From NCBI GenBank assembly GCA_022825855.1, contig JAJDWB010000009.1:1-64000 (forward strand): a stretch of DNA of 64,000 nt, read 5' to 3'. The stretch comes from Dehalococcoidia bacterium (GTDB taxonomy: Bacteria; Chloroflexota; Dehalococcoidia; Bin125). This document shows, one piece after another, positions 31,264 to 43,453 of this stretch. Made by a program: the position numbers and the translations under genes. Each line of letters starts with the position of its first letter. Positions within the stretch are counted from its first letter, which is position 1. Under the pieces are notes generated by a model. The model did not search any database, was not told the DNA's origin, and was given only the letters and a program-made list of their open reading frames with translations.

Positions 31264-31770
31264 CTAGTCGAAGATCAGCGCGTCGATCGTCGCCTGCCAG
31301 AACGAGGTTCCTGCCCGCGATTCGAACGCGTCCTGGCCGGCGCCGGCTGATTTTGGCAAGAATCGAGTCGGCATTGTGCGGGCGGGCGGCGGTTGACTCA
31401 CGTCGAGTGCAACTGTCGGTCGGGCCGCCACCATGTTGAATCGCTCCACGGCCTGCTGCTGAATGCGAGACAGGGATCCGAGCTGACCTACATACGCGGC
31501 CAGTGATCGAATCTCGGAGTTCAGGCGCTCGCGTTCCGCTTCCAATGCGCGCAGTTCCGATCCGCTCTCGGTCACGCTCGATGTGCGAACCACCGGCAGC
31601 ACCGCCGCAATGCAGAGGCCGATCACGGCCAGCCAGGCCCAGGCCGGCATCCGACCCGTGTAGCGCGGCCGCTGCGGCAAGACCGGACGCGGCAGCGCGT
31701 GCCAGGCATCGCTTGCGGCCGAAGTCGGCAGCGACGCGTCGAGCGTCGTGCTGGGCTTGGCCGTCGTCAT
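31264..31770 (-). CDS. ftsL: FtsL/DivIC-like division protein
   Basis: 168 aa bitopic protein. Seen: a 42-residue cytoplasmic N-terminus, one transmembrane helix (AWAWLAVIGLCIAAVLPVV), a heptad-rich coiled coil (about 72-105, ELRALEAERERLNSEIRSL), then a Pro-rich tail. FtsL is poorly conserved, so the identification rests on topology and position between rsmH and ftsI. ATG 31770 overlaps the preceding TGA as TGATG; that stop belongs to the open frame across the insert. Confidence 0.75.
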   Translation of the reverse strand: MTTAKPSTTLDASLPTSAASDAWHALPRPVLPQRPRYTGRMPAWAWLAVIGLCIAAVLPVVRTSSVTESGSELRALEAERERLNSEIRSLAAYVGQLGSLSRIQQQAVERFNMVAARPTVALDVSQPPPARTMPTRFLPKSAGAGQDAFESRAGTSFWQATIDALIFD

Positions 31771-31774
31771 CAGA
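31762..31774 (-). repeat. Right copy of 13-bp direct repeat bounding the rsmH-ftsL insert
   Basis: Minus-strand TCTGATGACGACG, spanning the start of ftsL. It matches TCTGATGCCGACG at 32400-32412 at 12 of 13 positions and in the same orientation. The two copies lie 638 bp apart and bracket the insert, as a target-site duplication would. Confidence 0.5.
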
Positions 31775-31942
31775 ACGCCGCCCGCCGGTGGGAAGTTCCC
31801 GTGACTCCGCCGCGTGGCTGTATCCCAACCCGTTCGGCAGGCAGTCCGTTACGGAAAGTAGTAGCGCCCCCGCACAAGCGCCGAGCGCCAATCCTAAAGT
31901 GGGACGGACCCGCACTCGGCGGGTGTGGCAGTGCTCGGGCAT

Positions 31943-32095
31943 CGTTGAGCGGACCGTGCGCGCAGACAGGGGGACGTGGTCCACGCTGGTCATGACCGAT
32001 GGTCACGCGCAACCGTGCACCTGTGGTTTGGCGGCGGGGCTTCTCCTTCACTGAAGTGGCTGTTAGGTAGTCCCCTGCGCACGATCCGCTCAACG
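31943..32095 (-). repeat. Palindromic RNA-like unit, copy A
   Basis: 153 nt. On the minus strand it opens with CGTTGAGCGG and closes with CCGCTCAACG (perfect 10 bp). Inside are CGTGCGC/GCGCACG, then GGGGAC/GTCCCC, then an apical TGACC-ATC-GGTCA hairpin. Loops conserved with copy B include ACCTAACAGCC, AAGGAG, GCCCCGCCGCC and AGCGTGGACCACGTCCC. The strand is chosen from operon direction; the palindromic nature leaves it open. I do not recognise a known RNA family. Confidence 0.6.
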
Positions 32096-32188
32096 ATTTC
32101 CGAGCACCCATCCGGCGCTCGTGTTGCTCCTCTCTCCATCCGTTTTCGGATGCCAATCTCTCAATCGACGGTTTGCTTGTTCTGACGC

Positions 32189-32350
32189 CGTTGAGCGGCC
32201 CGCGCGCCCTTGGAGTGGGACGTGGTCCACGCTCGTCGCCGCCGCGCTGCACGCGCGACGCCGGCAATCGTGTCCCGGAATGGCGGCGGGGCGCCTCCTT
32301 TGTACGTGTTTGGGCTGTTAGGTCGTCCCAGACACGCGAGCCGCTCAACG
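32189..32350 (-). repeat. Palindromic RNA-like unit, copy B
   Basis: 162 nt with the same 10-bp closing helix as copy A. Inner helices differ in sequence but keep pairing: CTCGCG/CGCGGG, TGGGACG/CGTCCCA, and an apical CGTCGC/GCGACG hairpin. It is 9 nt longer than copy A, so the minus-strand frame is kept. Confidence 0.6.
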
Positions 32351-32399
32351 GCATCCGAACCTGTGCCTCTGTGTGCTTGCTCTGTTTCCGTGAGAGCGA

Positions 32400-32412
32400 C
32401 GTCGGCATCAGA
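32400..32412 (-). repeat. Left copy of 13-bp direct repeat bounding the rsmH-ftsL insert
   Basis: Minus-strand TCTGATGCCGACG, spanning the rsmH stop codon. It matches the copy at 31762-31774 except for one base. Confidence 0.5.
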
Positions 32413-33307
32413 TCGCCTCCGCCGCTCGCAGCCGCGCGCTCCGGGCGCGGGGGTTGCGCTGGATCTCGGCCGTCGACGGACGCAGCACCCGGCGGGTGAG
32501 CGTGCGAAACGACGGTTCGTCTCCGGACGACTGCTCGCGCAAGAATCCCTTGACGATCCGGTCCTCCAGCGAGTGAAAGGCGATCACGACGAGCCGGCCG
32601 CCCAGTGCGAGCATCCCTCGAGCCTGGGTGAGAAACGCGGCCAGCCGATCGAGTTCGCGGTTGACTTCGAGCCGGATCGCCTGGAATACCCGCGTAGCTG
32701 GATGAATCCGCGCGCCGGGGCGCGTTCCTACGGCTTCAACGACCGCGTCGGCCAGTTCAACCGTGGTTTCGATCGGTCGCCGCCTGGCAATGCCGCGGGC
32801 GATCCTCCGCGAGCGGCGATCATCGCCGTACTCGTAGATCAGGTCGGCTAGTTCTTCGACCGGCCAATCGTTGACGATTTGCCGCGCCGTAACGGCAGAC
32901 GCAACGGAAGACGGACCCAGGCGCATGTCCAGCGGTCCGTCGGCCCGCAGTGAGAAACCACGCTCGGGAGTGTCGAGCTGCAGCGAGGAGACGCCAAGGT
33001 CGCAGAGGATGCCGTCCAGCGGCGACATGTCCGCGTCGGCGCCGGCCTCGGGTGCGTCGTCGAGCCAGCATTGCCGAAGCGTGATCCGCCCGGCAAACGG
33101 CTGCAGCCGATCCCCGGCCGCCGCGATCGCCTCGGGGTCGGCGTCGAGTCCCAGCAGGCGTCCGTCCGGCGCCGAAGCTTCCAGGACCGCCTGCGCGTGA
33201 CCGCCGAGTCCAACTGTGGCATCGAGGTATCGTCCGCCCGGCTTGACGTCGAGCATGGCCAGCGCCTCGTCGAGCATCACCGGTTGGTGAACGGCGGAAG
33301 AGGTCAC
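32408..33307 (-). CDS. rsmH: 16S rRNA (cytosine1402-N4)-methyltransferase
   Basis: 299-aa SAM enzyme (MraW) modifying the ribosomal P site. Seen: HQPVMLDEALAMLDVKPGG, YLDATVGLGGHAQAVLE, LLGLDADPEAIAAA, DGILCDLGVSSLQLD, ERGFSLRADGPLDMRL, FQAIRLEVNRELD, and VVIAFHSLEDRIVKGF. The start is GTG 33307, overlapping the mraZ stop as GTGA; the open frame further upstream is shadow of mraZ. Confidence 0.97.
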   Translation of the reverse strand: MTSSAVHQPVMLDEALAMLDVKPGGRYLDATVGLGGHAQAVLEASAPDGRLLGLDADPEAIAAAGDRLQPFAGRITLRQCWLDDAPEAGADADMSPLDGILCDLGVSSLQLDTPERGFSLRADGPLDMRLGPSSVASAVTARQIVNDWPVEELADLIYEYGDDRRSRRIARGIARRRPIETTVELADAVVEAVGTRPGARIHPATRVFQAIRLEVNRELDRLAAFLTQARGMLALGGRLVVIAFHSLEDRIVKGFLREQSSGDEPSFRTLTRRVLRPSTAEIQRNPRARSARLRAAEAI

Positions 33308-33774
33308 GAGGACTCCTCCGGTTGCACAGCGGGACCCTGTGTTTGCGCGAGACCCTCGAGCAGTTCCGCGTAGACCTCGTCGATCTGCCGCTGTTCGCTC
33401 TGCCAGGCCTCTGCGTTCCAGATTTCCAGGTAGTCGCCCATCCCGATCACCATCGTCAGACCGTCCAGCCCGCGCTCCTCGCGCATCGGCTGCGGAATCA
33501 CGATCCGGCCCTGCCGATCCAGCTCGACGCGGCGCACTCGTCCGAAGAAGCTGCGCGCCAGGCGCCGCGCCGAGGCGGTCAGCTTGTCGCCCACCGTGCG
33601 CATCTGCTTTTCCTCGGCGTACCCCTCCGGCGTGTAGAGCTCGATCTGTCCGTCGGGACCCGGCAGCAGGAATCCGCCGTGCTCGAAGAGCAAGCGGTAG
33701 ACAGCCGGAACCGCCAGACGACCGCGGTCGTCCATCCTGTGTTCGTATTCGCCTGTGAAGTCGAGCGTTGCCAC
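33304..33774 (-). CDS. mraZ: Transcriptional regulator MraZ
   Basis: 156 aa, two AbrB-like SpoVT domains. Seen: FTGEYEHRMDDRGRLAVPAVYR in the first and VELDRQGRIVIPQPMREERGL in the second. MraZ forms ring oligomers and represses its own dcw operon. GTG 33774 is the start, preceded by AGGGGA. Two TGGG boxes in 10-bp phase lie about 50 bp upstream. Confidence 0.95.
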   Translation of the reverse strand: MATLDFTGEYEHRMDDRGRLAVPAVYRLLFEHGGFLLPGPDGQIELYTPEGYAEEKQMRTVGDKLTASARRLARSFFGRVRRVELDRQGRIVIPQPMREERGLDGLTMVIGMGDYLEIWNAEAWQSEQRQIDEVYAELLEGLAQTQGPAVQPEESS

Positions 33775-43376: not shown

Positions 43377-43453
43377 GGCCCCGTGGTGTAGCGGCCTAAC
43401 ACGCCACCCTGTCAAGGTGGAGATCGGCGGTTCGAATCCGCTCGGGGTCGCCA
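43377..43453 (+). tRNA. tRNA-Asp (GTC)
   Basis: A full cloverleaf: acceptor GGCCCCG with CGGGGTC, anticodon stem CCACC/GGTGG around loop CTGTCAA (anticodon GTC), T arm with TTCGAAT, discriminator G, and an encoded CCA at 43451-43453. It is convergent with the acyl-CoA carboxylase gene. Confidence 0.97.

Follow-up and report, generated by a model that had tools for sequence, protein, structure and literature searches.

A covarying RNA structure at the rsmH-ftsL junction of Dehalococcoidia suggests a possible, so far undescribed regulation of the division operon

What are the two similar structured units that separate rsmH from ftsL in the division operon of a Dehalococcoidia (Chloroflexota) MAG, and what might they do there? 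The window, i.e. the whole stretch of DNA that was analysed (64,000 nucleotides), had previously been interpreted from its letters without database searches; this sequence-only reading considered the units to be a selected RNA fold, possibly acting as a cis-regulatory RNA, a processing site or a mobile element. Our data strongly support that the units form a real RNA structure. Moreover, we show its synteny, a conserved translatability of the surrounding sequence, its linkage to ftsL and the presence of a related form inside rsmH of relatives. In what we consider the best explanation, to which we give an even chance of being correct, the element would be a structured RNA within the translated rsmH-ftsL transcript, acting in cis to tune FtsL output.

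The order of genes on the minus strand is mraZ, rsmH, the two units, an ftsL-like gene, ftsI and murF (Table 1), where we take three of the genes to be mraZ, ftsI and murF from their sequence without a database search. The same rsmH-ftsL locus is present in other MAGs of the class, which, judging from isolate names, are of marine and sponge origin. Both units lie within one minus-strand open reading frame (31770-32408; referred to as the bridge ORF), which the sequence-only reading had overlooked. In the window its ATG overlaps the rsmH stop codon and its own stop codon overlaps the ftsL ATG (TGATG in both cases). The ftsL-like gene is without a Shine-Dalgarno sequence and its start would be coupled to the stop of the bridge ORF. 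A small hairpin next to the ftsL ATG, the sole consensus helix of the downstream part in 13 genomes of the genus, fits with translational coupling.

Table 1. Features of the rsmH-ftsL region in the window
Feature	Coordinates	Strand	Remarks
rsmH (mraW), 16S rRNA m4C1402 methyltransferase	32408..33308	-	PF01795, E 7e-96; start codon approximate
Shine-Dalgarno-like GGAGG at the rsmH end, 8 nt 5' of the bridge ATG	32416..32420	-	conserved, 15 genus genomes
Bridge ORF, 212 codons, spans both elements	31770..32408	-	open in 16/16 species
Element copy B, 162 nt, tandem, more diverged	32189..32350	-	fold z -6.4; R1 match 111 bits
Element copy A, 153 nt	31943..32095	-	fold z -4.5; same place in 13 genus genomes; covariation
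Bipartite conserved block CACTNTA..G ... TTTCCGTAA	31849..31901	-	within the bridge ORF
Hairpin arms GGAAC...GTTCY abutting the ftsL ATG	31772..31799	-	conserved in 13 genus genomes
ftsL-like gene, single TM and coiled coil	31264..31770	-	PF04999, E 6e-4, under the curated cut-off

The two units were present where they had been placed before, with identical closing arms of 10 nt, and the helices named in the sequence-only reading pair in A as well as in B; the closing helix reaches further than previously drawn, to about 31930-32108 (A) and 32179-32360 (B). Copies A and B are approximately 70% identical when aligned, and their predicted folding energies are -73.8 and -92.4 kcal/mol, respectively (the z-scores in Table 1 are relative to dinucleotide shuffles). 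Specifically, copy A has a 19 bp closing stem (P1), an inner stem GGGGAC:GUCCCC, an apical stem and a long 5' loop containing AAGGAGAAGCCCCGCCGCCA; the flush terminal stem of the element measures 19-35 bp. With respect to the loops that had been regarded as conserved, AAGGAG..CCCCGCC is fixed across species and ACCTAACAGCC is variable.

All 15 genomes of the genus carry the element, as does one genome of another genus (G017), giving 22 copies with a maximum of two in tandem and lengths of 153, 156, 162 or 165 nt, all multiples of three. The A unit is exactly 153 nt and occupies the same position in 13 genus genomes, and the second, more diverged unit is present in the window genome and in G002, G003, G004 and G014 of the genus, and also in tandem in G017. 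Variant copies in G007, G008 and G017 have other sequences and an unchanged architecture. A search using the covariance model R1 detected homologues in related genomes, all at the rsmH-ftsL locus, and, reverse-strand echoes aside, no spacer element elsewhere among 393 genomes of the class (E-values are rough, the class and the phylum were sampled under strict filters, and the sequences are all MAGs from uncultured hosts). No Rfam 15 family matched the element at or above the gathering score (cmscan), where the sub-threshold matches to eukaryotic miRNA and snoRNA models were chance ones, and the literature search, with coverage that leaves out most subscription journals, found no publication on the element.

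In the 22-copy alignment, double-sided compensatory changes occur at 20 of 42 predicted pairs. Scored against the stated structure, the 20 distinct copies show such changes at 19 of 43 pairs, 91.7% of the cells pair, and the double-sided cells number 51 versus 13 expected; none of 500 shuffles reached any of five measures, and the slid-register control gave a pairing of just 33-44%. Covariation of the spacer element, and of the rsmH-internal form (see below), hence exceeds both the composition and the register controls, as for a conserved structural RNA. The selected fold proposed earlier is strongly supported by 22 homologues and massive covariation, so that the outcome named beforehand as refuting it, a lack of homologues and covariation in other genomes, did not occur. 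On the operon strand G-U/U-G combinations outnumber A-C/C-A combinations (44 vs 9), which argues for an RNA transcribed with the operon and disfavours a DNA cruciform. An alternative switch, in which GGGGAC would pair with a local CCCC, was also considered and found no consistent support in the variant copies as judged by eye.

The bridge frame is open in all 16 species (126-249 codons), while no other frame is open save one reverse frame in G017. Based on single-base shuffles, the chance of a stop-free ORF is 0.1-4% for each, where the product of these values is not a probability since the species are not independent. In most species the bridge ORF ends at the ftsL start, G004 being an exception with the stop 12 nt ahead of ftsL; it begins at the rsmH stop, preceded by GGAGG, in the 15 genus genomes, and in G017 it follows a TAA and the GGAGG run is not intact. 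Of seven pairwise alignments, six contain 11 gaps in total, every one a multiple of three in length, and that of G009/G013 is ambiguous. Substitutions between close relatives are evenly spread over the codon positions in the bridge ORF, 26:25:24 for G007/G008 and 30:26:34 for G003/G004, compared to 7:7:33 and 14:6:60, respectively, in rsmH, and GC1=GC2=GC3 in the bridge ORF, unlike rsmH (about.75/.52/.77) and ftsL. Taken together, the open frame, the indels in threes and the even codon-position changes are most simply read as selection for uninterrupted translation and not for a peptide, and the bridge ORF looks like a ribosome bridge rather than a protein gene.

Relatives lacking the spacer unit carry a related hairpin within the rsmH coding sequence, which had likewise escaped the sequence-only reading. 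In G015, G016 and G018 ftsL follows directly after rsmH with no spacer unit, and R1 gave full-length matches (28-33 bits) within rsmH of these three and of G019, in the same codons each time; they were initially suspected to be chance matches, a view that was dropped once the coding hairpin emerged. The helix is a perfect 17 bp one in which the VEQAVG codons pair with the RGLLG codons around the HPAT motif. The hairpin was found in 40 of approximately 104 sampled Dehalococcoidia rsmH genes, representing at least nine families (f1, f2, f17, f22, f25, f31, f33, f60 and f66), and the model score suggests that f50 also has it. The stems vary between 15 and 32 bp, the extensions to 27-32 bp covary, the compensatory changes are synonymous and the loop CACCCCGCCAC is fixed. 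Among 33 sequences, 12 of 23 pairs show double-sided changes (49 cells versus 15 expected; 0 of 500 shuffles). In the 40 hairpin-bearing genes the HPAT codons are CAC CCC GCC ACC, and their wobble base is C in 92/100/92/82% of cases, compared to 47/28/28/50% in 32 GC-rich rsmH genes without the hairpin, a group that includes the genus of the window. Compared codon by codon and with GC3 equal between the groups, excess synonymous conservation appears solely at the 5' arm (.87 vs.35), HPAT (.84 vs.48) and the 3' arm (.82 vs.44). In rsmH of the window's genus no internal helix was detected and synonymous conservation at these sites is at background. Model R2 scored above 120 bits just in Dehalococcoidia; beyond the class its scores did not exceed 75 bits, and these wider-phylum matches mostly reflect rsmH sequence conservation. 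G017 was flagged as well, with its helix in another register. In rsmH of G250 (L148) a helix of 17 pairs is displaced (3' arm +96); it is probably the hairpin with an indel and was counted as negative.

Are the spacer and the rsmH-internal forms one element? They share neighbourhood and arm identity, and both loops contain CCCCGCC, which spans positions 57-63 of the 153 nt in A and positions 55-61 of the 152 nt in G015. Alignment z-scores between the forms are about 2-5 for the loops alone and 3-6.6 against a stem-preserving null, and R1 and R2 each find the other's loci. The R2 match to the spacer copies comes mostly from the P1 stem, with an almost equal score on the opposite strand, so the case for homology draws on geometry, the similarity of the loops, neighbourhood and tree, not on that score alone. 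When the columns of the trait are left out of the RsmH tree, the spacer-type genomes (G017 and the genus) group as a single clade (support 93), which is nested together with the hairpin-bearing G015, G016, G018 and G019 (support 99). Since the spacer type is nested within the rsmH-internal type, the element has probably moved out of rsmH into the spacer, and did so once.

An FtsL-like ORF comes directly after rsmH in 38 of the 38 assessable hairpin-bearing genes (two more could not be parsed) and in about 18 of approximately 56 hairpin-less ones outside the genus, where FtsL-likeness was judged by eye and the linkage is confounded by phylogeny and GC content. Several Dehalococcoidia, among them those at L083, L077 and L040, have FtsA-like or other genes after rsmH, and none of these has the hairpin. 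In both forms the element lies in translated RNA roughly 100-290 nt 5' of ftsL, a distance that is slightly exceeded in genomes with a wider rsmH-ftsL gap, and this position shortly before ftsL is the ground for proposing that ftsL is controlled in cis via translation, which fits the synteny and context.

How the element would regulate ftsL, in which direction and by what kind of coupling, we infer as follows. Ribosomes would initiate at the GGAGG/TGATG junction and traverse the bridge ORF, whose frame is kept, and in doing so would melt the element(s) as well as the hairpin that covers the start codon of ftsL; terminating on or next to that codon, they would reinitiate at the ftsL gene. At low ribosome flow the long hairpin would close, and either coupling would be reduced or the message would be exposed to cleavage, such that FtsL and the genes behind it would be tuned to ribosome flow. 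In relatives, the related hairpin is inside rsmH at a similar distance ahead of ftsL. Several considerations speak against this model: since hairpins are melted by ribosomes during elongation, it is not evident that coupling would be affected; the roughly 18 hairpin-less genomes that keep the rsmH-ftsL order show that the element is dispensable; the bridge ORF of G004 stops short of ftsL; and the linkage to ftsL is confounded as stated above.

The main rival is an excised stable RNA, akin to the decRNAs, which in E. coli come from the mraZ, ftsL, ftsI and murE genes of this operon (PMC6156199). RNases would cut the operon mRNA, and the flush stem, situated within translated RNA, would protect a fragment of approximately 155-185 nt that acts in trans or marks an rsmH-ftsL processing site. 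The known E. coli decRNAs sit in other genes, and we regard this reading as unlikely. That the stem is very stable and inside translated RNA would also suit programmed pausing of ribosomes or a function in mRNA stability, as an RNase III site or a Rho shield, where ftsL would not be specifically controlled, and a stop-free bridge would prevent Rho polarity as well; however, the fixed loops AAGGAG..CCCCGCC and CACCCCGCCAC exceed the needs of a bare stem, and we consider this reading improbable. In a further rival, autoregulation by RsmH, the enzyme would bind or methylate the loop, which would imitate its 16S target, and would repress its own message. The element is always in or beside rsmH, the wobble bias at HPAT accompanies the hairpin, and CACCCCGCCAC resembles the h44 target CACACCGCC of the genome's own 16S (8 of 9 core positions, read by eye). 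However, the match is short, partly forced by the HPAT codons and not extended by the 16S flanks, and rsmH genes that lack a neighbouring ftsL showed no hairpin, though RsmH persists there; we consider autoregulation a rather poor prospect.

Two further readings are much lower still in probability. A small conserved protein gene with incidental RNA pairing would account for the frame being open in every species and for the indels in threes, but the codon positions are equally substituted, their GC content is unlike that of rsmH and ftsL, the pairs covary and the product has no Pfam match; the 212-codon ORF showed no sign of purifying selection, and the protein-gene reading was rejected on the codon-position evidence. 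The palindromic ends, the length of approximately 150 bp, the in-frame position and the tandem copies would suit a mobile palindromic element like those of Rickettsia, as the sequence-only reading had in part envisaged. This proposal is not supported: the relatives suggest relocation from rsmH, the element is kept vertically at one locus, and no copy was found beyond it in its own, related or any other genome searched, where two unrelated 20-mer matches (Spirochaete and archaeal) in 84,980 species are chance ones that do not fold like the element.

The mraW RNA motif (RF01746) is positioned upstream of mraW. Found in Actinomycetales (PMC2864571), it is likewise a candidate structured RNA linked to mraW/rsmH, but it belongs to a different phylum, its covariance model gave no cmscan match to the element, and the element described here is inside or after rsmH. 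A second comparison is with the decRNAs, e.g. that of E. coli ftsI, which is 173 nt, has stems at both ends and is conserved more than its gene (PMC6156199): like them, the element is a structured segment of about 170 nt in translated dcw-operon mRNA with stable terminal stems and reduced change at synonymous sites. Unlike them, it involves different genes, and its spacer copies are in a dedicated bridge ORF without protein selection. Rickettsia palindromic elements (PMC10969869) are also palindromic units of approximately 150 bp tolerated in frame within ORFs, but they are dispersed over unrelated genes, in contrast to the single-locus, vertical element. Similarly, the coding palindromes of nematomorph mitochondria (PMC6649704) are long inverted repeats in protein genes with both arms encoding conserved residues, yet these are many DNA palindromes in mitochondrial genes, and the present element is a single RNA that has a fixed loop motif and belongs to one locus in bacteria.

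These findings add a so far undescribed family of strongly covarying RNAs that is linked to rsmH-ftsL, where ribosome maturation meets cell division. The same kind of RNA exists under two coding regimes, an essential protein gene and a frame-kept, sequence-neutral ORF, which provides a natural experiment in the sharing of a message by RNA structure and translation, and a caution that a conserved open frame does not necessarily mean a selected protein. We tentatively propose that a class-specific RNA, functional only in translated mRNA, controls the Dehalococcoidia division operon, and that in one clade it left rsmH and is now in an ORF selected for ribosome passage and not for its product.

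Some further observations concern the surroundings and the variants of the element. The window gave a single Rfam match, a tRNA at 43377-43450 (plus strand). In most genomes of the genus the two halves of the CACTNTA..G / TTTCCGTAA block keep a fixed spacing of 45 nt, with a variable middle; the block is possibly a promoter, a protein site or a further RNA feature. Finally, in the G007 and G008 copies (L056:2522-2707 and L055:2510-2695) the inner stem is changed to GGGGAUGGGG:CCCCUCCCC and the loop is different, with AAGGAG and the closing stem retained, and these copies represent variants useful for probing.
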